Shown here one piece after another: positions 42,709 through 52,382 of a stretch of DNA of 56,160 bases (the first letter of the stretch is position 1; the number at the start of each line of letters is the position of its first letter). Source of the DNA: Hydrogenobacter sp. (GTDB lineage Bacteria > Aquificota > Aquificia > Aquificales > Aquificaceae). The DNA lies in assembly GCA_041287335.1 (NCBI GenBank), contig JBEULM010000061.1, positions 1 through 56,160 of the forward strand, written 5' to 3'. A program made the translations under genes and the position numbers. The notes below the pieces were generated by a model. That model had not been told where the DNA came from. It worked only from the letters and a program-made list of their open reading frames with translations, and searched no databases.

Positions 42709-42730
42709 CTTAACAAATTCTTAATAAGGT
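42709..42730 (+). promoter_or_regulatory. Pho-box-like tandem repeat upstream of the P-type ATPase cluster
   Basis: Two 11-bp units, CTTAACAAATT and CTTAATAAGGT, stand head to tail and are followed directly by TATGAT (42731-42736), a good -10. The same unit (YTTAAY, period 11) occurs upstream of the TonB-receptor operon and the 68-aa gene. The pattern resembles PyTTAAPy repeats recognised by PhoB-type regulators in cyanobacteria. Confidence 0.6.
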
Positions 42731-42754
42731 TATGATAAATTACAAAGAAGAATA

Positions 42755-43123
42755 ATGATCGAATACGTAGCCAGAAAGCAAGGAGAAGCGCGACTCTACT
42801 TTAGCACAAGAGAAGGCAGGAACCTTTTTGCCCGTTTTACGGCGGAGTTGGAGGGGGTTTTAGGGGTTGAATACAAGGAAAATACTACGACACTGCTTAT
42901 AAAGTTTCAAGAGGGCAGTTTTGCTCAAAGACTTATAGAGAGTTTAAAACCTAAAGAGGTTCATATAAATAAAGAAGACCTGCACTTCTACATACAGCCT
43001 CTATTGAAACATCCTGCGGTAAAGCTGGGCTTTAGCCTTTTCATGTTAGGCTTGCCTGCGGGACTTATTTCCTTTGGTTTTTGTAGCATGTTTTTGATAC
43101 CCTATCTAAAAACTAAATTTTAG
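42755..43123 (+). CDS. HMA-like small membrane protein, first gene of the P-type ATPase cluster
   Basis: The 122-aa product has an N-terminal half (residues 1-70) that looks like a betaalphabeta HMA-type fold: a GEARLYF strand, an FTAELEGVLGVE helix/turn and an LLIKFQEGSF strand. It lacks the metal-binding CxxC. Residues 85-115 are a hydrophobic segment (LGFSLFMLGLPAGLISFGFCSMFL), probably one or two membrane passes. It resembles HMA_2-type proteins that accompany P-type ATPases. It has only a weak AAGAAG SD and is the first gene after the Pho-box-like repeat. Confidence 0.78.
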   Translation: MIEYVARKQGEARLYFSTREGRNLFARFTAELEGVLGVEYKENTTTLLIKFQEGSFAQRLIESLKPKEVHINKEDLHFYIQPLLKHPAVKLGFSLFMLGLPAGLISFGFCSMFLIPYLKTKF

Positions 43124-43133
43124 GAGGTGGTAT

Positions 43134-43448
43134 ATGCTAAACTTTAACTTGCCTTCCACTGTAGGTGGATGCCTTTCTACCAACATGCTTCTTTATGGTT
43201 TTGGTACTCTTGCTGGTCTTGTAGTTCTGAGCAAAATAATGAAGGATGCAAGACCTTTACTTGTCTCTACCACAAAGGAAGTAATAGCCTTTCAGCAGTG
43301 GCTGAGCGGAAACATGGAGGAGGGCAAGGAGTTCTGGGAGGATGTAATTTCAGAAGCCAGGCACCTTTACAGGCTTGAGGTGGAGAAAAAGCTGGAAATC
43401 TTGCAGAAACAGCAGGAGATACTCCAGAGGATAAAGGAAAGAATATGA
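43134..43448 (+). CDS. 104-aa membrane/coiled-coil protein of the P-type ATPase cluster
   Basis: The product has an N-terminal membrane segment (MLLYGFGTLAGLVVLSKI, residues 18-35), a central helix (DARPLLVSTTKEVIAFQQWL) and a charged C-terminal coiled coil. This plan, membrane helix then an ARPL...EA-rich amphipathic helix, recalls DUF5132-type proteins seen next to some P-type ATPases, but I cannot confirm membership. SD GGAGGT lies before the ATG. Its position in an unbroken run of four genes with gaps of 10-12 bp supports a shared function. Confidence 0.78.
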   Translation: MLNFNLPSTVGGCLSTNMLLYGFGTLAGLVVLSKIMKDARPLLVSTTKEVIAFQQWLSGNMEEGKEFWEDVISEARHLYRLEVEKKLEILQKQQEILQRIKERI

Positions 43449-43460
43449 GGAGGTAAAAAG

Positions 43461-43664
43461 ATGAACGGAGTTGCTTCAGTGCTTGGAAGGTTTTTCTGCT
43501 CCGGACCCTTTAGCTTTGCCTTAGGCTTTGGCTTGGGCGTGCTTGCCCTTTACATGTTAGATAGGGCAAAGGAAAAAAGAAGGTTTGAGGAAACCCAACG
43601 GGAAATAGAGGCTATGGTAAAAGCCCTTGAGCTGAAGCTCCAGCAGGAAAACAGGCAAGAATGA
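43461..43664 (+). CDS. 67-aa single-pass membrane protein of the P-type ATPase cluster
   Basis: The 67-aa product has one hydrophobic segment (PFSFALGFGLGVLALYML, residues 17-34) followed by a highly charged helical tail (RAKEKRRFEETQREIEAM). It overlaps the start of the ATPase gene by 4 bp (ATGA), which supports expression with it. SD AGGAGGT. It may be a small regulatory or anchoring subunit of the pump; no family is recognised. Confidence 0.75.
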   Translation: MNGVASVLGRFFCSGPFSFALGFGLGVLALYMLDRAKEKRRFEETQREIEAMVKALELKLQQENRQE

Positions 43665-45748
43665 TACCCTACAGGCTGGAAAACCTTTCACCGGGCAGGC
43701 TCAGGCTCAGCTCCTACCTCTTCCAGCACCTGCACTATCCTGAAGAGGTTCTGAAAGAGAGCTTTTCTCGTTTTGGCGGTGTGAAGAAGGTGTCCTACTC
43801 AAAAAGGAGCGGAAGGCTCCTCTTAGAGTATGAGCCAGACAGCTTTGACCTTATTGAGTTTTTAAACTACCTTGCCTCCACCGCAAGAGAGCTTTTTTTA
43901 AGAGACCTTTCCCTGCTGAAGGTGGAGAAAAGGAGGGAAGAAACCAAAGCTGGAAGGGGGCTGCTTCTGACCTCTCTTGGCTTTCTGCCCTATCTTGCCA
44001 GGGGGCTTCTGCCCAGTCCTCTGCTGTCTGCCATAACGCTTCTCCTTGCAAAGCCCATACTGGAAAAAGGCTTAAGCTCCCTCAAAGCTCTGAAGCCTGA
44101 CGTGCATTTTCTTGACTCTTCTGCCATAGTGCTTTCAAGCCTTACGGGAAGCCCTCTGTCCGCTCATACTATGGTGTTCTTGCTTGTCCTCGGAGACTAT
44201 CTTTCGGAAAAAGTGGAGAAAAAAGCCTACGCGGAAATAGAAAGGCTCTTTTCTTACAGAGAGGATACCGCGTGGCTTGTAATCGGAGATGGACAAGCTA
44301 TCAAGGTAAAAGCTTTAGATTTAAAAAGCGGAGACCTTATTGTGGTCTATGCGGGGGAGAAGATACCCGCAGACGGGTTGGTGCAGGAGGGTGATGCCCT
44401 CGTCAATCAGGCTTCTCTTACAGGGGAGTCAAACCCTGTTCATAAGAAGGCGGGCGATAAGGTCTATGCGGGCACCTTTGTAGAGGACGGAAAGCTCTAC
44501 ATAAGGGTGGAGGAGGTGGGTGAGGAGACGGTGGTGGCAAAGATAGCAAGGCTGGTGGAGGAAAGCATAAAGGAACCCATAGGCCTGCAAAGACTTGCAG
44601 AAGAGACGGCCAGCAGGATGGTGCTCCCCACCTTAGCCCTTGGTCTTGGCACCTTTGCCCTGAGCGGGCAGGTAAGCAGGCTAACCTCTACTCTAATAAT
44701 AGACTACCATACAGGCATACACCTTTCTACACCTCTGGCGGTACTATCCAGTATATCTTATGCATCTACCTACGGTGTTCTCATAAAAAGTGGTAGCAAG
44801 TTAGAAACCTTATCAAGGGTGGATACTTTCGTGTTTGACAAAACAGGCACTCTCACTATAGGAAGTCCTCAAATAGAAGATGTGGTTGGAATTGAATTAA
44901 GTCTGGAAGATACACTCCTCTACGCTGCATCTTTAGACCAAAGGATAACCCATCCTGTGGCTAAGGCTATAGTAAAGCTTGCACAGGAAAGGGGGCTTGA
45001 GCTTATGCCAAGGAAAAATTCGCAGTACCATATAGGTCTTGGTGTTGAAGGAGACATATCTGGCGAGAGGTATTTGTTAGGTAGCACGCGCTTCATGCAG
45101 AAGAAACGCATTAAGATAGACCCGGAAATAAGGGATATGGTGGATAGGTTTCACGCGGAAGCCAAATCCGTGCTTTATTTGGTAAAAGACAGGAAGATAG
45201 TAGGACTTTTAACCTTTAAGGACCCACTGAGAGAGGAGGCAAAGGATGTAGTAGCTGAACTAAAGAGAAGAGGCAAGAGAGTTGTACTGTGTACAGGAGA
45301 CAATGAAGGTATCGCAAAGTATATAGCAGAAGAGTTGGGCATAGATGAGTTTTATGCGCGCGTATTTCCTGCGGAAAAAGCGAAGATTGTGGAAGAGCTA
45401 AAGGGAAAGGGTAGAATAGTAGCCTTTGTTGGTGATGGAGTGAATGACTCTCCAGCTTTGACTTCCGCCCACGTAGGTATTTCCCTACGAAGCGGTACAG
45501 ACATAGCCATAGAAGTGGCAGATATAGTGATAGGAGATAGCCTCTGGCACTTAATAGATGTCGTGGAGCTTTCGGAATATACGATGGAAAAGCTAAGGAA
45601 GATATATGCCATAAATACATTTGCCAACACGGTAGGTTTATTCGGCTCTGTGGTGGGTCTTTTTGGACCTACTATTTCTACTCTTATAAATAACGGCGTT
45701 ACCGTAGCCTTAAGTATATACTCAATAAAAAAAACCAAAAGGAGGTAG
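43661..45748 (+). CDS. P1B-like P-type ATPase lacking the CPC membrane motif
   Basis: The 695-aa protein has the P-type motifs LTGES, the phosphorylated Asp393 in DKTGTLT, the P1B-specific His-Pro (ITHPVAKAI), TGDN and GDGVNDSPAL. An HMA-like but CxxC-less N-terminal domain (residues 1-80) precedes the membrane part. In heavy-metal pumps the helix before DKTGT carries CPC or a variant; here it reads IDYHTGIHLSTPLAV (Asp348, His350, His354, Pro358), with no cysteine. The transported ion therefore cannot be assumed to be a soft metal. GC drops from about 52-58% to about 42-45% near 44.7 kb within the gene. It shares a cluster with at least six small genes. Confidence 0.93.
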   Translation: MIPYRLENLSPGRLRLSSYLFQHLHYPEEVLKESFSRFGGVKKVSYSKRSGRLLLEYEPDSFDLIEFLNYLASTARELFLRDLSLLKVEKRREETKAGRGLLLTSLGFLPYLARGLLPSPLLSAITLLLAKPILEKGLSSLKALKPDVHFLDSSAIVLSSLTGSPLSAHTMVFLLVLGDYLSEKVEKKAYAEIERLFSYREDTAWLVIGDGQAIKVKALDLKSGDLIVVYAGEKIPADGLVQEGDALVNQASLTGESNPVHKKAGDKVYAGTFVEDGKLYIRVEEVGEETVVAKIARLVEESIKEPIGLQRLAEETASRMVLPTLALGLGTFALSGQVSRLTSTLIIDYHTGIHLSTPLAVLSSISYASTYGVLIKSGSKLETLSRVDTFVFDKTGTLTIGSPQIEDVVGIELSLEDTLLYAASLDQRITHPVAKAIVKLAQERGLELMPRKNSQYHIGLGVEGDISGERYLLGSTRFMQKKRIKIDPEIRDMVDRFHAEAKSVLYLVKDRKIVGLLTFKDPLREEAKDVVAELKRRGKRVVLCTGDNEGIAKYIAEELGIDEFYARVFPAEKAKIVEELKGKGRIVAFVGDGVNDSPALTSAHVGISLRSGTDIAIEVADIVIGDSLWHLIDVVELSEYTMEKLRKIYAINTFANTVGLFGSVVGLFGPTISTLINNGVTVALSIYSIKKTKRR

Positions 45749-45752
45749 TATC

Positions 45753-46034
45753 ATGGAAGAAAGAAAAGACTTAGCTCAGGAGTTAGAAAAAATAAAGCAA
45801 GAGCTGGAAGAACTAAAGAAGAAGTTGGGAGCTACAGAAGAAAAAAGCCTCAAAGAACTACCATCAGAGGCTCTAAACAAGGTGTTAGACTTAAGCAAAG
45901 ATATCGTTAAAACCGCAGCGGAGATAGGTGAAAAGGCTCTTAAGGTAGTCAAATACTCAGTAGAGGGTGCGGTAGAAGGTGCAAAGAAGGCTTTTAAGGA
46001 AGAACAAAAAGAAGAGGAGAAAAAACAAGAATGA
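45753..46034 (+). CDS. 93-aa coiled-coil protein
   Basis: The product is almost all charged helix: an N-terminal coiled coil with heptads (KIKQELEELKKKL) and a central amphipathic stretch (ALNKVLDLSKDIVKTAAEIG, then ALKVVKYSVEGAVEGAKKAF) like membrane-surface or phasin-type helices, with a Lys/Glu-rich tail. No catalytic motif. It starts 4 bp after the ATPase stop with AAGGAGG and overlaps the next gene by 4 bp. Function unknown; a scaffold or peripheral partner of the ATPase is possible. Confidence 0.78.
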   Translation: MEERKDLAQELEKIKQELEELKKKLGATEEKSLKELPSEALNKVLDLSKDIVKTAAEIGEKALKVVKYSVEGAVEGAKKAFKEEQKEEEKKQE

Positions 46035-46288
46035 ACTTTATTAAAACAAGAAGCGGAAGGTATTTAAACGCCCTCCACCTAATATCTCTTTCTGTGGAGG
46101 AAACAAAGATAGAGGTGGAGGGCAAGAAAAGGATAGTGTATAAGGTGGTGGCTTACATGAGCCAGCCTTTGCTTCCTGCGGTACTCGGAATATACTCCAC
46201 CGAGGAAAGAGCCTTTGAGGTGTTAGAGGAAATAATAAGAAGGTTATCTCAAGATGAGAAGGTTATAAGTCTTGAGAGCGAGTACTGA
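46031..46288 (+). CDS. 85-aa hypothetical protein of the P-type ATPase cluster
   Basis: The soluble 85-aa product looks like a small alpha/beta fold, with strands such as YLNALHLISLSVEE and RIVYKVVAYMS and a C-terminal helix AFEVLEEIIRRLSQ. It starts inside the end of the coiled-coil gene (ATGA overlap) and its 3' end overlaps the next gene by 17 bp. No family recognised. The chained overlaps show that it belongs to the operon. Confidence 0.7.
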   Translation: MNFIKTRSGRYLNALHLISLSVEETKIEVEGKKRIVYKVVAYMSQPLLPAVLGIYSTEERAFEVLEEIIRRLSQDEKVISLESEY

Positions 46289-46610
46289 AGAAGTATTAAG
46301 GGAGCTGAAACTTTTAGCCCATCATACGCAGGAAAAGCACAAGGAAGCCTTCAAAAAGATAAAGGAGCCTATCCTTCTTGAAGTAAGGTTAGAAGACGGT
46401 AAAAACTTCTATTTTCTCATAAATCAAGAAGGCATACATTTCGTAGAAGACTCAATAAAAGTAAAAAACAAGGTAATAGTAGCATACAAAGACCTTCTAA
46501 GACTTATAGAAAAGCCCTCAAAAGTGGTGAGGTATCTTTTAGAAGGCAGGTTAAGAGTAGAAGGAGACTATCTTAACGTGCTTGATACTCTAAATAGACT
46601 CTTTGTTTAA
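46272..46610 (+). CDS. 112-aa SCP2-like protein, last gene of the P-type ATPase cluster
   Basis: The frame starts at a TTG (46272) overlapping the end of the previous gene, with AGAAGG about 10 nt upstream; no ATG is available near. The 112-aa product has a helical N-terminus and an SCP2/sterol-carrier-like pattern: ILLEVRLEDGKNFYFLI strand pair, VIVAYKDLLRLIEKP helix and LLEGRLRVEGDYLNVL. Small SCP2 domains bind lipids or other hydrophobic ligands. Assignment is by pattern only. It ends 80 bp before the TonB-receptor gene. Confidence 0.68.
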   Translation: MRASTEEVLRELKLLAHHTQEKHKEAFKKIKEPILLEVRLEDGKNFYFLINQEGIHFVEDSIKVKNKVIVAYKDLLRLIEKPSKVVRYLLEGRLRVEGDYLNVLDTLNRLFV

Positions 46611-46615
46611 AAAAC

Positions 46616-46648
46616 TTTAACGGACGCTTAACAGAATCTTAACAAAAA
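46616..46648 (+). promoter_or_regulatory. Pho-box-like triple repeat upstream of the TonB-receptor/phoD operon
   Basis: Three 11-bp units stand in a row: TTTAACGGACG, CTTAACAGAAT and CTTAACAAAAA. A TATATA/TAGTAT -10 region follows at 46654-46662. The PyTTAAPy core, the 11-bp (one helical turn) period and the place just upstream of a -10 are those of a PhoB-class activator site. The operon ends in a PhoD-type phosphatase, which fits phosphate control. Confidence 0.68.
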
Positions 46649-46689
46649 ATCAGTAGTATATAGAACGAAATCGTAGAGGAGGTAAAACG

Positions 46690-48954
46690 ATGAGAAGGTG
46701 GTACCTCATCGGTGCTGTTCTGTCTCTTAGCTGTTTGAACGCGCTGGCTCAAGAAACCCAGATACAGGTAGAAGTGAAAGAAAAGAGGAGTGAGGAAGAA
46801 AGACAAAAACTACCTGTTGAGAAAAAAACCGCAACTCCGCGCACAGAAACCACTATAAAAGGCGAAGAGCTTACAAAACAGTCGGGTGCGGGCTCCGTAA
46901 ATATCTTCAAAGCGGTAGAACTCACACCATCCTTGAACGTGCAGACGGACGACCCTTACGGTCTTGGTGGAGGCTCTATTAGAATAAGGGGCTTTGATAA
47001 CACGCAGATAGGCGTATCATTAGACGGTATGCCTTTAAACGACTCGGGAAACTTTGCCCTATATCCTCATGAGTACGTGGATGTAGAAAACCTTGAAAGC
47101 ATCACAGTAGAGAGGGGAGCAGTAGGAAAGAGGTCACCTTTCTACGTAGATATAGGTGGCTCAATAAAACTTAGGGTAAAACCTCCGAGTAACAAACTAA
47201 GGTATAGCTATAACCTTTCCGCGGGTAGCTTCAGCTTTGTTAGAGAGTACCTTAGGCTTGATACGGGACTGATACCGAAGATAAACCTTAAGGGTTTCAT
47301 CTCCTTTTCGCATACCAGCGCTGAAAAGTGGAAAGGTCCTGGTAAAAACCCGGACTACAGGGACCACTTAGCCTTTGGACTTGCTCAAAATCTAGGAAGG
47401 CTAAGGTGGGAGTTCTACTTTGACAACAACGCTCAAACTAACTATTTCTACAGGGGATTAAACTATGCACAGGCTATGGATTTGGATAGATACAGAAGGT
47501 TTGACTACACGGACAGGCTCATATTCCCAGGTGGCAACGGTACAGTTCACAACAACCCAGCTATAAGGGATAACAACCTTAACTATTACAAGTTTTATAA
47601 AAACCCCTACATAAACAGGGAGGCAAGAGCGAACATAGAACTGGACGTGGCAAAGAACATAACGCTAATCCTAAAGCCTTACTATTGGTACGGAAGGGGA
47701 AGTGGCACATCAGCCACCACCTTTACCTCTGGTGGGAATACCTATATAGCCTTCAGAGAGTCCTTTAACTACACGGATAGACCAGGAGTCATCACAGAGT
47801 TAAGGTTTGACGTGCCTTACGGAGAGCTCTATGCGGGTTATTGGTACGAAAGGTCAGAGCTAAAACAGTGGCAGCCTTCAAGACCGGTGAGGGTAAACCC
47901 TAATGACTCCTTTACCCTCTTAACTAATACAGTTGGAACACCCCGCTTTCAATACAACTACATACAAAAGACCATAACAACTACCAACACGCCATACGTA
48001 TTTACGGACTTAAGAAGCCTCTTTGGAGGCAGGATAGACCTAAATCTCGGCTTGAGATTTGCTCAGGTAAAAAGAGATTTTACAAACTACTCTACTCAGG
48101 GTCTGCCTTACCTTCCAGAGGACAACATATTTGACTATCCGAATCTTAAAAAAGACAGTAATACCTCTTACATAAAGACCTACAGACGCATCTTGCCCAA
48201 CATCGGTATAGGCATCAAGCTTTCAAATGTGGTGTATCCTTACTTCGCATACGCTAAGAATTTCAGGGTTCCACAGAACTTTATAGGAGCCATACCAACG
48301 AACATAAGCGCGCAGTTTGTAGCAGACCAGTTAAAGCCAGAAGAGTCCGACTCTTATGATATTGGCATAAGGTTTGACTTTGGCGGTATATACATAGTAC
48401 CTTCCGCTTATTACGTTGACTACAAAAATAGGTTAATAAGGATTGCGGACCCCACGGACCCTAACCTAATATACCTCAGAAATGCAGGAAAGGTAATAGC
48501 TTACGGTGCTGAACTGGAGATAGGTGCCAACATCTTCAAAAGTCTTAGTCTATACAGCTCTTTTTCATACAACGAAGCCAAGTTTAAAGATGAACTCTAC
48601 TATAGCGGAAATCAACCCATAAACATAAAAGACAAAACTGTTCCAGATACGCCCAAATACATGTTTAAGTTGGGTATGGACTACATGATTTTGGGATTTG
48701 ATGTAAGACCCAGCGTAATTTACATAAGTTCAAGGTACGGAAATCTTACAAATACGGAAAAAGTGGGAGGTTATACCCTTGCAAACCTCTACATAAGCAG
48801 GGATATATACAAGGGATACGCAAATCTATACATCGATATCAGAAACCTATTTGATAAGAAGTACATAGGCAGGATATCGGTAGGAGATACTAGCGGAACA
48901 TACTACGTGGGTGCGCCCTTCAGTGTGGCTGTTGGTTTAAAAGGGAGTTTCTGA
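46690..48954 (+). CDS. TonB-dependent outer-membrane receptor
   Basis: The 754-aa protein has a signal peptide (cleavage likely after Ala20), a TonB-box-like TQIQVEV, a plug domain (PSLNVQTDDPYGLGGGSIRIRGF in short blocks, DGMPLNDSG, YVDVENLESITVERG) and a large beta-barrel with many Tyr/Phe-rich strands ending at a C-terminal Phe (GLKGSF). It takes up a large or scarce substrate using TonB energy. It is followed at once by its own exbB-exbD-tonB and by phoD. The Pho-box-like repeat upstream suggests that a phosphorus-containing ligand is the cargo; no siderophore genes are seen. Confidence 0.93.
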   Translation: MRRWYLIGAVLSLSCLNALAQETQIQVEVKEKRSEEERQKLPVEKKTATPRTETTIKGEELTKQSGAGSVNIFKAVELTPSLNVQTDDPYGLGGGSIRIRGFDNTQIGVSLDGMPLNDSGNFALYPHEYVDVENLESITVERGAVGKRSPFYVDIGGSIKLRVKPPSNKLRYSYNLSAGSFSFVREYLRLDTGLIPKINLKGFISFSHTSAEKWKGPGKNPDYRDHLAFGLAQNLGRLRWEFYFDNNAQTNYFYRGLNYAQAMDLDRYRRFDYTDRLIFPGGNGTVHNNPAIRDNNLNYYKFYKNPYINREARANIELDVAKNITLILKPYYWYGRGSGTSATTFTSGGNTYIAFRESFNYTDRPGVITELRFDVPYGELYAGYWYERSELKQWQPSRPVRVNPNDSFTLLTNTVGTPRFQYNYIQKTITTTNTPYVFTDLRSLFGGRIDLNLGLRFAQVKRDFTNYSTQGLPYLPEDNIFDYPNLKKDSNTSYIKTYRRILPNIGIGIKLSNVVYPYFAYAKNFRVPQNFIGAIPTNISAQFVADQLKPEESDSYDIGIRFDFGGIYIVPSAYYVDYKNRLIRIADPTDPNLIYLRNAGKVIAYGAELEIGANIFKSLSLYSSFSYNEAKFKDELYYSGNQPINIKDKTVPDTPKYMFKLGMDYMILGFDVRPSVIYISSRYGNLTNTEKVGGYTLANLYISRDIYKGYANLYIDIRNLFDKKYIGRISVGDTSGTYYVGAPFSVAVGLKGSF

Positions 48955-48955
48955 G

Positions 48956-49387
48956 ATGGGCCTCGAGCTTTTACACAAGATTGTTTTTGTAGGTATGTTT
49001 CTTATGTTCTTGGCTTCTAATTACGTGATAGTGCTTAAGTTTTTACAGTTAAGAAGAAGACCGCAAACATCTCCTCAAGAAGCTTATGAGTGGATGCACC
49101 TTTTTAGAGAAGGTCTTTGGTGGCTTGACTTTTCTGCAACTACCGCTCCCCTCGTAGGACTGCTGGGTACCATAATAGCACTTATAGAAGCCTTCAACAA
49201 ACTTACACAGCTTGGTGTATCCAATGCTTCTCAAATAAGCTCTGCCATAGGCTTTGCCCTGGTAGCAACAGCGGTAGGAATCCTTCTCTCTCTTTGGAAT
49301 TATCTTTTCTTCAAGCTCTTCTCTTCACGACTACACCAGTACAGAGAACGCATAAAAGCCACAATACTCCAAGAGGTATTAAAATGA
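48956..49387 (+). CDS. exbB: ExbB/TolQ-type proton-channel protein
   Basis: ExbB forms the pentameric proton channel that powers TonB. The 143-aa protein is short (E. coli ExbB is 244) but has the three expected membrane segments: about residues 8-27, 60-80 (WLDFSATTAPLVGLLGTIIALIEAF in two blocks) and 98-118 (IGFALVATAVGILLSLWNY). The GLLGT and ALVATAVG motifs are typical of MotA/TolQ/ExbB. The start is 1 bp after the receptor stop. Confidence 0.92.
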   Translation: MGLELLHKIVFVGMFLMFLASNYVIVLKFLQLRRRPQTSPQEAYEWMHLFREGLWWLDFSATTAPLVGLLGTIIALIEAFNKLTQLGVSNASQISSAIGFALVATAVGILLSLWNYLFFKLFSSRLHQYRERIKATILQEVLK

Positions 49388-49809
49388 TGGAAAAGCTTAA
49401 GTTATTAATACTCCTCTTGGAAGAAGAGCAAGAGGGCAAAGAGGAAATACAGATAGTACCAACTATAGATGTGATGCTGTTTCTTTTAGTGTTTTTTATC
49501 CTCTATACCCTCAACGTAATACCCCTTTTCCAGCAGTCTATCCTACTTCCAGCTACAAAGACAGCTCAAGAGGAGAGAAAATCAAAAATTTTACGGGTGT
49601 ATATTGACCAGGAGGGAAGAGTGAAGGCTGAAAATAATTTAGAGGGATTACAGGCTATAAGAAACTATATAAGAGAAAATAGGCAAAATATAGAAAGCGT
49701 TTTAATAGTAGCGGACAAGCGCTCAAAAGTAGAGCCTCTTATGCAGGTACTCGACCTTATGAAGATGGAAGGCATATCCAACGTAGGCATTGCAAGTGAG
49801 AAAAAATGA
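49384..49809 (+). CDS. exbD: ExbD/TolR-type protein
   Basis: The 141-aa protein starts at the ATGA overlap with exbB (the frame could extend 90 bp further upstream but only through exbB). It has a short N-terminal tail and one membrane helix beginning IVPTIDVMLFLLVFFIL, with the proton-relay Asp29, then a periplasmic domain. Asp29 is the residue expected to be essential in ExbD. It lies between exbB and tonB and completes the energising complex. Confidence 0.93.
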   Translation: MMEKLKLLILLLEEEQEGKEEIQIVPTIDVMLFLLVFFILYTLNVIPLFQQSILLPATKTAQEERKSKILRVYIDQEGRVKAENNLEGLQAIRNYIRENRQNIESVLIVADKRSKVEPLMQVLDLMKMEGISNVGIASEKK

Positions 49810-50555
49810 ACACCTACTTAGAAGACAGAATAAAAGCTTTTATACTTAGCCTTACTGTTAGCTCGCTTTCACTCTTTTTCCTTCTCAAACTTCCTTTAGC
49901 CCTCGTAGCATACAAAGAAAGCAAACCTCAGTATATACAGGTTAAACTACTCGAACTTCCGCAGGAAAATACAAAGAAAATAACAAAAGAACCTACAAAA
50001 ACCACGAAAACAGAAAAATTTATAAGAAAGGAGCCTTCCAAAAGCCAGGCAACAGAAAAACCTAAACTTACACCTATTCAAAACCCACTCATAAAAAGTC
50101 CCATAGAAGAGCTCAACGAGAGGGAGGAAGAAATAAAGGAACAGAAACAGGAACAAGCAATACAAAGCCCTTCAGAGAAGACGGGGATAAAAGAAGACAA
50201 GGCGAATCCAAAGTTAGAGCAGTCGCACAAACCTGAAAAAGAAGAGACCAGCCCACCTACAAAACCAAATAAGGACCCCTTTGCTGAATACCTTCTCAAA
50301 GTAAAGAGGCTTATAGAAGCAAAGAAGGTCTATCCAGAAGAGGCAAAAAGATATGGTGTTGAAGGGAAAGTAACTTTGAGGCTTACTCTGGACAGGGATG
50401 GAAGGTTAAAAAATCTTCAGGTAGTGCGTTCAAGCGGAAGCTTCATACTAGACAGAGAAGCTCAAAAACTCATATCATCCCTAAAGTTTCCCCCTTTACC
50501 CAGCGGAGAAGAATACACCTTTCAAGTAGTCATAGAATACAAACTGGAGGATTGA
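49806..50555 (+). CDS. tonB: TonB energy-transducing protein
   Basis: The 249-aa protein has one N-terminal membrane helix (FILSLTVSSLSLFFLLKLPL), a long Lys/Glu/Pro/Thr-rich spacer (residues 45-160) that spans the periplasm, and a C-terminal TonB_C domain (EYLLKVKRLIEAKKVYPEEAKRYGVEGKV in two blocks, LDREAQKLISSLKFPPLP, then FQVVIEYKL). It overlaps exbD by 4 bp. Confidence 0.92.
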   Translation: MNTYLEDRIKAFILSLTVSSLSLFFLLKLPLALVAYKESKPQYIQVKLLELPQENTKKITKEPTKTTKTEKFIRKEPSKSQATEKPKLTPIQNPLIKSPIEELNEREEEIKEQKQEQAIQSPSEKTGIKEDKANPKLEQSHKPEKEETSPPTKPNKDPFAEYLLKVKRLIEAKKVYPEEAKRYGVEGKVTLRLTLDRDGRLKNLQVVRSSGSFILDREAQKLISSLKFPPLPSGEEYTFQVVIEYKLED

Positions 50556-50556
50556 T

Positions 50557-52140
50557 ATGCTTACGAGGAGAGAGTTTTTAGAGATAGCTGGTTTATCTAT
50601 CAGCCTCCTGCTACTCCATCCTTTTGTGGCTATTTCAGAAGAGAGCGTGGAGGTCTTTCCTCAAGGTATAGCAAGCGGAGACCCTACCCAAGAGAGCATC
50701 CTTCTTTGGGCGCGTATAGAGCCTTCTGTACATGCGAGGTTGTCTAAGAACCTAAAGGTGTATGTACTGTTAGAAGGAAAAGAACTGTATAAGGAGTATG
50801 AAGTGCCTACAAATTACATAAGCCCGATGAACGACTATACAGTTAGGTTAAAGATAAGAAACCTGCTACCCGGCAGAACTTACTTTTATGTGTTTGAGTA
50901 TGCAGGGGTAAAGAGAATGGGAAGGTTCAAAACTTTACCCGATAAGGAAGTGGATAACTATTCCATAGTCTTTATAACCTGTCAGAACTACGAAGATGGA
51001 TATTATTCAGCCTTTAGACATATCGCGGAGGAAGAAGATATTGGTTTTGTTCTGCACCTTGGGGACGCCATATACGAGTGCATCTACGGAGCAAAGATAG
51101 CTGATAGAAAACTAAACCTTCCATCTGGGCAACCATGTGCCATAGGCTTAGAAGACTACCGCCATCTCTACAGAACTTACCTTTCTGACCCTAACTATCA
51201 GATAGCGCGCGCTATGCATTCTTTCATATACATATGGGACGACCACGAGTTTGCAAACGACTACTACTATGACTACGATAGGCAGTATTGGGTACCTGTT
51301 AGCTATCCTGAAAGCATAAGAAATAATAGAGAGTTTTGTTTAAGGCTAAAAAGAGCTTCCATTAAAGCGTGGTACGAATACACACCTGCGGTGGTAAAAT
51401 TAAGCGCTGACAGTAAGAATCCTCTTGAATGGATAAGCATATACAGGAATTTCAAAGTAGGAAACCTCGCTCATCTTATATGCACCGACGAACGCTCATA
51501 CCGGCAAAAGCAGTGTCCTATCAGGTATAGGTCTCCCGGTTGTTCAACACAGATAACTCACACAATGCTGGGAGAGGAACAGAGAAAATGGTTCTTTAGT
51601 AGGCTTTCCGAAAGAAACTTTCGCTGGAAAATTTGGGCTAATGAGGTACAGTTTGCTCTTTCAAGGATAGATGGTTTGTATAGTAGTACAGATGCATGGG
51701 ATGGCTACATAGGTGAAAGAAGCAGGATAATAGAGTTTTTAAAGAATGAAAACATAGATAACCTCATAGTCTTGACGGGTGATAGACATGCCTTTATGGC
51801 TTCAGACATTCCAGAAGACTTCAGACCTAGTTATGAAAGGGTTTTAGGAGCTGAGTTCATGACAGGTGCCTTATCCTCTATAAACACTTCAGAAGCAGGC
51901 TGGTGGAAGAGAGATTTTCCTCAGTATAAAACTATAGAAGAAATCACAGAGGTGGAATTAACTCAAAACCCTTGGATAAGGTTCTTAAATCAGAAGACGT
52001 GGGGATATTCTGTGCTTGAGCTTAGTAAAGAAAAGGTACGTGTTAAGTTTTATTCAGTCGATAAGTATAAAAAACAAGCTCCCAAAAGCTTACTTGCAAG
52101 TCTCAGCTATGAGAGAGGCAGACCCTTAATGTTAGAATAA
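50557..52140 (+). CDS. phoD: PhoD-type alkaline phosphatase/phosphodiesterase with Tat-like signal
   Basis: The 527-aa protein starts with a twin-arginine-type signal (LTRREFLEIAGLSISLLLL, Arg4-Arg5). It follows the PhoD order: an N-terminal beta domain with PQGIASGDPTQESILLWARI, then the metal-binding HLGDAIYE, WDDHEFANDYY and LTGDRHAFM motifs, and TGALSS. PhoD enzymes are Ca/Fe phosphodiesterases exported in folded form under phosphate starvation. The coupling to a dedicated TonB system is notable. SD GGAGG precedes the ATG. It could also serve another phosphoester. Confidence 0.92.
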   Translation: MLTRREFLEIAGLSISLLLLHPFVAISEESVEVFPQGIASGDPTQESILLWARIEPSVHARLSKNLKVYVLLEGKELYKEYEVPTNYISPMNDYTVRLKIRNLLPGRTYFYVFEYAGVKRMGRFKTLPDKEVDNYSIVFITCQNYEDGYYSAFRHIAEEEDIGFVLHLGDAIYECIYGAKIADRKLNLPSGQPCAIGLEDYRHLYRTYLSDPNYQIARAMHSFIYIWDDHEFANDYYYDYDRQYWVPVSYPESIRNNREFCLRLKRASIKAWYEYTPAVVKLSADSKNPLEWISIYRNFKVGNLAHLICTDERSYRQKQCPIRYRSPGCSTQITHTMLGEEQRKWFFSRLSERNFRWKIWANEVQFALSRIDGLYSSTDAWDGYIGERSRIIEFLKNENIDNLIVLTGDRHAFMASDIPEDFRPSYERVLGAEFMTGALSSINTSEAGWWKRDFPQYKTIEEITEVELTQNPWIRFLNQKTWGYSVLELSKEKVRVKFYSVDKYKKQAPKSLLASLSYERGRPLMLE

Positions 52141-52338
52141 CCTGTTTATTGCCTTAGTGATAAGGTTCTCTAACAATCCACCCGCCACAAAGGACCCAAT
52201 CAGTATGGTTCTGTCCTTTTCTGTAAGAAAAGTGTCCCTTTCTCGCTTTCTTGACTTTTCTCCTCTTTTCAGGAGCTTCCTGCACCCTTCCTTTTCCGCC
52301 TCAATCTTGCTTATAAGTTCTTCAACTCTATTTTTCAT
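52132..52338 (-). CDS. 68-aa small protein with C-terminal hydrophobic helix
   Basis: This leftward frame is convergent with phoD (9-bp overlap). The product is Lys/Arg/Glu-rich in its first 45 residues (SKIEAEKEGCRKLLKR, ERDTFLTEKDRT) and has a moderately hydrophobic C-terminal helix (ILIGSFVAGGLLENLITKAI). No family recognised and no clear SD. What supports it as a gene is the Pho-box-like repeat just upstream on its own strand. Expression is inferred, not proven. Confidence 0.6.
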   Translation of the reverse strand: MKNRVEELISKIEAEKEGCRKLLKRGEKSRKRERDTFLTEKDRTILIGSFVAGGLLENLITKAINRLF

Positions 52339-52360
52339 AGCCGGTATTGATCGTAAAGAT

Positions 52361-52382
52361 AAATTGTTAAGAAATCGTTAAG
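52361..52382 (-). promoter_or_regulatory. Pho-box-like tandem repeat upstream of the 68-aa gene
   Basis: On the minus strand CTTAACGATTT (52372-52382) is followed directly by CTTAACAATTT (52361-52371). TATCTT/TACGAT -10-like words lie between it and the ATG at 52338. Same unit and period as the two sites at 42.7 and 46.6 kb. Confidence 0.6.

Follow-up and report, generated by a model that had tools for sequence, protein, structure and literature searches.

Several described phosphate-starvation (Pho) systems provide the background for the locus considered here. In Bacillus subtilis, the PhoP–PhoR system uses TTAACA-like direct repeats with a period of about 11 bp and includes the phosphatase PhoD among its targets. 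Escherichia coli PhoB uses tandem direct repeats, each made up of 8 bp and a 3-bp A/T-rich linker, placed 10 bp upstream of a −10 element TAN3T/A (PMC1906773). Synechocystis SphR uses CTTAACCT repeats (PMC1906773), and TTAA cores are required for PhoB binding in this cyanobacterium (PMC11126600). According to a 2026 survey of phosphate regulators, Aquificales is one of the taxa with neither PhoP nor PhoR identified (PMC13170248), and our searches of the open-access literature brought up no account of a Pho regulon in Aquificales or Aquificaceae. A 56,160-nt stretch of DNA from a heat-loving Hydrogenobacter sp. (Aquificaceae; contig JBEULM010000061.1), called the window below, carries three transcription units with promoters of this general type: a P-type ATPase cluster, a TonB receptor–phoD operon and a gene for a 68-aa protein. 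Judging from sequence comparisons, all three very probably belong to a predicted Pho regulon of the Aquificaceae.

This system shares with E. coli PhoBR the 11-bp tandem repeats, the 10-bp distance to a TAN3T-type −10 element, an OmpR-family PhoB and the pstSCAB, phoU, porin and phosphatase targets. It differs in the core sequence (CTGTCAT in E. coli, CTTAAC in Aquificaceae), in that phoB of the window's genome is unboxed and lies apart from the phoU-linked kinase, and in the extra targets, namely the P1B-ATPase cluster, the 68-aa gene and a GTPase/EAL operon. The cyanobacterial SphR regulon has nearly the same box (CTTAAC with an 11-bp period) and likewise targets pstS and alkaline phosphatase. 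However, cyanobacteria use three repeats (PMC1906773, PMC11126600), whereas in Aquificaceae two suffice at most promoters, a strong A follows the second CTTAAC and the −10 spacing is rigid. B. subtilis belongs to another lineage, and the Aquificaceae PhoD operon, unlike its target there, has its own TonB-dependent receptor and the TonB/ExbBD of a diderm. The PhoB-type mechanism is already known; what is new is the lineage, the tightness of the promoter code and part of the membership (the HTG P1B-ATPase cluster, the 68-aa protein and a GTPase/EAL-GGDEF operon).

The promoter module and the genes it marks

The initial annotation of the window described tandem boxes with an 11-bp period at three promoters, each facing a gene and standing just before a −10-like box. 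Direct reading finds all of them (Table 1); the plus-strand coordinates hold, while those given for the minus strand (52372 and 52361) are about 10 bp off. At all three promoters the last box is followed, at exactly 10 bp, by a TAnnnT hexamer. The resulting full module, HTTAAYN5HTTAAYN10TANNNT, occurs at 11 sites in the 1.67-Mb genome containing the window (G000; G, C and L denote genomes, contigs and extracted loci) against 0.6 expected, and the reversed pattern at none. For the genome-wide expectations, about 310 kb of this genome served to train a first-order Markov model. The exact pair CTTAACN5CTTAAC is found five times (0.47 expected), and the C-anchored module CTTAAYN5CTTAAYN10TANNNT three times in the window alone, where 0.002 are expected.

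In ten of the 11 cases the full module stands at the promoter of a pst, phoU, phosphatase, porin or conserved co-regulated gene, so that the motif is not equally frequent before unrelated genes. Apart from the three in the window, one lies on the minus strand of L020 ahead of a 75-aa gene and then pstS, in a unit cut off by the contig end; PstS scores above the curated model cut-off. Another precedes phoU and a HAMP-PAS-HisKA-HATPase kinase in one boxed operon (L025). The pst and phoU operons, named in the initial annotation as a check on the motif, are thus both marked, and so is phoB in genomes of genus g6. Four in-phase boxes precede the Porin_O_P porin gene (L045), and a module lies upstream of the type I phosphodiesterase gene (L022). 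Four boxes also precede an operon encoding DUF2334, PHP/glycosyltransferase and glycosyltransferase proteins (L016). The last two modules serve a divergent pair (L017). One side holds a roadblock-like gene and a Ras-like GTPase; the other opens with a 136-aa gene, behind which lie genes for a PQQ-dependent alcohol dehydrogenase, a MoxJ-like protein and a PqqU-like receptor. At all ten candidate promoters the box occupies the −35 place, 10 bp upstream of a TAN3T-type −10 element. Boxes also precede phosphatase genes, those of the phoD operon, of the type I phosphodiesterase and, in relatives, of PhoX.

Glycosyltransferases make non-phosphorus lipids in other phosphate-starved bacteria (e.g., PMC4796936, PMC8528852). 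By analogy, the DUF2334–PHP-glycosyltransferase operon could make such lipids, with membrane-lipid replacement as its probable role.

Some further matches were not taken as Pho boxes. Among the TTTAAC..TTTAAC matches on C23 and C32 is a repeated sequence (C23:20678, C32:500) that lies at no pho-type promoter; the sequence around TTTAACCTTTCTTTAAC (L018 6679, L019 500) is shared by both contigs, near the contig end in C32, and represents a repeat rather than a Pho box. C46:21206 lies inside a gene, and one-mismatch matches on C5, C9, C30 and C47 are within genes or face no phosphate gene. A further candidate array, three boxes before a GYD-domain gene (C2:2911; L046 2911–2967), has a −10 element that does not fit the module.

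Throughout the genus, a conserved protein of 74–79 aa that seems to have a signal peptide is encoded in the interval from the Pho box to pstS (L020 712–939, minus strand; L106 3035–3259; L109 1103–1342; L120 1036–1269). Two genomes of the genus (L017 8276–14714, L114 2216–6615) have a Pho-type promoter upstream of the PQQ-dependent alcohol dehydrogenase and MoxJ-like genes, and in L017 of the PqqU-like TonB receptor gene too. Genes boxed in one genome each encode a low-molecular-weight phosphotyrosine phosphatase-like protein, a hemerythrin and the GYD-domain protein (L128 5547–6011; L106 117–584; L046 2911–2967).

Conservation across the Aquificaceae

Scanning 25 Aquificaceae genomes, with the reversed pattern as control, yielded 102 full modules against 4 controls and 57 exact CTTAACN5CTTAAC pairs against 1. 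In 16 genomes of two sister families the full module is not enriched (25 against 21 controls). A logo built from 62 exact sites reads CTTAAC-aaaWT-CTTAAC-A-N9-TAnaaT, with the −10 element at a single fixed position in 42 of them. Upstream of pstS, a match of at least 11/12 is present in 19 of the 21 Aquificaceae genomes found by PstS search (that of G000 was read directly from L020) and in none of the nine sister-family genomes scanned; the motif is thus not missing from pst.

In some relatives (L140, L149, L123/L124) the window units sit together as an island next to pst; elsewhere they are scattered, yet the box is kept. Directly before pst, three of these loci (L140 4816–9566; L123 5661–10092; L149 2698–5972) carry a boxed operon for a variable small protein and roadblock-like, MglA/Ras-like GTPase, HEAT-repeat and EAL-GGDEF proteins, possibly placing c-di-GMP or cell polarity under phosphate control. 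Genomes G013 and G020 have 14–15 full modules each, roughly half falling in a single 20-kb stretch (about 627–647 kb), which may reflect a larger regulon or an island. The G019 chromosome opens with an exact box pair directly ahead of a 409-aa gene (L232 8–24).

Several points weigh against assigning these promoters to a Pho regulon. Tandems of the form YTTAAYN5YTTAAY, the consensus of the initial annotation, number 4 in the window (0.59 expected from shuffles), and genome-wide they show no enrichment (15 observed, 13.9 expected). YTTAAY by itself is therefore non-discriminating; scanning with it only was dropped as too loose, and the consensus needs tightening to CTTAAC-N5-CTTAAC-N10-TAnnnT. 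The module pattern was in turn shaped on the sites that it recovers, making the own-genome count partly circular; because of this shaping, cross-genome conservation is the cleaner test, even if sites of relatives contributed to the logo. One module site, C10:33714 (ATTAAT/ATTAAT), is probably a chance match. A phoU upstream match of at least 11/12 was found in 10 of 23 genomes, so that a good box is missing in about half of the family. TTAA-type direct repeats can also serve other members of the OmpR family. Finally, the genus of the window lacks a box at phoB; autoregulation of phoB is not universal among Pho systems (PMC1906773).

The background-level count of YTTAAY tandems would fit an origin by chance, TTAA tandems being common in A+T-rich intergenic DNA and having no common regulator. 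We consider this extremely improbable given the fixed 10-bp gap to the −10 element, the 102:4 excess in the family and the retention of the box by the same orthologous genes. The assignment of the three window units to a phosphate-starvation regulon, as first proposed, is supported by the module they share with pst, phoU, phosphatase and porin genes and by its conservation in the family.

Candidate regulator and proposed mechanism

The window's genome encodes five OmpR-type regulators. The product of C50:2517–3191 is the best of them against PhoB models, yet scores under their curated cut-offs; its orthologue is found family-wide in Aquificaceae. Genomes G024 and G009 have a pstS–kinase–phoB neighbourhood with boxes upstream of both phoB and pstS (the kinase being named by sequence reading only), and phoB of G017 is served by a divergent promoter with boxes.

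With five such regulators available, the boxes could belong to another one, e.g., that of C45:4028–4702, which scores highest with CopR/MtrA models; it would sense some other envelope or metal stress and merely overlap with phosphate genes. This is very unlikely, as the targets, with pst, phoU, phosphatases and a phosphate porin, are those of a textbook Pho regulon. Moreover, C50 rather than C45 is the best match to PhoB models, and the C50 orthologue adjoins pstS and is boxed in one genus.

We infer that the C50 regulator binds these boxes and induces the genes at low phosphate. Under this Pho model, low phosphate would be signalled by PstSCAB/PhoU to a sensor kinase, either the phoU-linked one or some other, PhoR-type kinase, that phosphorylates the PhoB-family regulator, for which C50 is the best candidate. 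Phospho-PhoB would bind head-to-tail on at least two 11-bp CTTAAC-N5 repeats, the last of which would stand in for the −35 element and leave exactly 10 bp to the −10 TAnnnT downstream. Bound PhoB would then recruit the main sigma factor and switch transcription on. The predicted products would serve Pi uptake (pst), outer-membrane entry (the Porin_O_P porin and the TonB receptor with its own ExbB/ExbD/TonB) and phosphate release (PhoD, type I phosphodiesterase and, in relatives, PhoX), alongside the metal P1B-ATPase cluster and the 68-aa protein.

At several Pho promoters, promoters 1 and 3 of the window among them (42736–42755; 52355–52338), the start codon lies only about 11–13 bp past the −10 element, and near-leaderless mRNAs are therefore expected.

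The three boxed units of the window

Table 1. Promoter elements and genes of the three boxed units (positions in the window)
Feature	Position	Strand	Basis or remark
Promoter 1, Pho-box pair CTTAAC (42709–42714) / CTTAAT (42720–42725)	42709–42725	+	Sequence read directly; conservation in relatives
Promoter 1, −10 hexamer TAAATT	42736–42741	+	10 bp past second box; 13 bp ahead of ATG
122-aa protein, first cluster gene; soluble beta-beta-alpha-beta-beta-alpha domain and C-terminal helices	42755–43123	+	AlphaFold model, pLDDT 73
104-aa conserved small protein, cluster marker	43134–43448	+	Homologues in relatives
67-aa small protein, N-terminal half hydrophobic	43461–43664	+	
P1B-type ATPase (TIGR01525), D-Y-H-T-G-x-H-L-x-T-P in place of CPC	43661–45748	+	Profile and motif
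93-aa Lys/Glu-rich protein, probably helical	45753–46034	+	
85-aa cluster protein	46031–46288	+	
112-aa SCP2-like (lipid-carrier family) protein, last cluster gene	46272–46610	+	PF02036, E 2.9e-7
Promoter 2, three in-phase Pho boxes TTTAAC (46616–46621), CTTAAC (46627–46632), CTTAAC (46638–46643)	46616–46643	+	Read directly
Promoter 2, −10 hexamer TAGTAT	46654–46659	+	10 bp past last box
TonB-dependent outer-membrane receptor	46690–48954	+	PF00593/PF07715
ExbB-like protein	48956–49387	+	Sequence reading; same gene order in L236
ExbD-like protein	49384–49809	+	Start inferred at ATG 49384; same order in L236
TonB-like protein	49806–50555	+	Sequence reading
PhoD-type phosphatase/phosphodiesterase, apparent Tat signal	50557–52140	+	PF09423, E 1.3e-78
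68-aa conserved basic protein, own Pho promoter	52132–52338	−	Boxed homologues
Promoter 3, −10 hexamer TACGAT	52355–52350	−	10 bp past last box
Promoter 3, Pho-box pair CTTAAC (52377–52382), CTTAAC (52366–52371)	52366–52382	−	Read directly

The exact CTTAACN5CTTAAC pair precedes the first gene of the P-type ATPase cluster in eight of ten named Aquificaceae loci (one of them labelled Acidobacteria but syntenic), being degenerate in L146 and absent from L147; the cluster is also boxed in L105, L124 and L234 (G021 and G019 among the genomes). The locus labelled Acidobacteria bacterium J001 (L144, RFFP01000022.1) carries the Aquificaceae Pho island with a 104-aa marker 83% identical, and is probably mis-binned. 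Boxes precede the TonB–ExbB–ExbD–TonB–PhoD operon in both G001 and G019 (L092, L236), and in G002 a module (C6:79141) lies 3.9 kb before phoD. Homologues of the 68-aa gene are boxed in L107, L124, L235, L141, L142, L144, L145 and L149 (G002, G019, G021 and several named metagenome-assembled genomes).

Neither the ATPase cluster nor the 68-aa gene is characterised, and no phosphate role is known for either product. What they share might be no more than an ancestral promoter architecture, with phosphate starvation inducing the PhoD operon alone. We regard this as unlikely, since the genes change place, being clustered in some cases (G021, L140) and scattered in others (G000, G019), and still keep their boxes across several genera; the box thus travels with the gene.

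The ATPase scores 479.5 bits against TIGR01525 (cut-off 346.25). The canonical CPC metal motif of the P1B membrane helix is absent, and DYHTGxHLxTP is found in 10 of 10 homologues; specificity of the CopA or ZntA kind is accordingly not claimed. For the 122-aa protein, a fold search returned nothing significant: the best match had E 0.013, and a CopZ-like metallochaperone came up only at E 0.12. Ferrosome (fez) clusters, in which FezB is a putative ferrous iron transporter, similarly encode a metal P-type ATPase with small membrane proteins. Judged by its motif and Pfam matches, the window cluster appears to differ in its HTG transmembrane motif and its SCP2-like protein; no DUF4405/FezC-like partner is among the Pfam matches of the cluster proteins. 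PhoB-mediated cross-talk between phosphate and iron is documented in Synechocystis (PMC11126600).

In our judgement, the candidate roles of the ATPase are, in ranked order, removal of metal freed as phosphate falls, metal supply to exported phosphatases, and loading of a membrane compartment. We tentatively suggest, as a possibility well short of an even chance, that the Aquificaceae Pho regulon controls a new membrane module that moves metal freed or needed at low phosphate, possibly into a compartment. It would comprise the HTG P1B ATPase, the soluble-plus-membrane 122-aa partner, two small membrane proteins, the helical protein and the SCP2-like carrier. If true, such a module would tie both the handling of metals and the replacement of lipids to phosphate in an early-branching lineage.

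The promoter code gives a predicted condition of use to uncharacterised genes, namely the HTG ATPase cluster, the 68-aa protein and the DUF2334–glycosyltransferase and GTPase/EAL-GGDEF operons. Sharply defined and family-wide, it makes the phosphate response directly testable in Hydrogenobacter, Thermocrinis or Aquifex.

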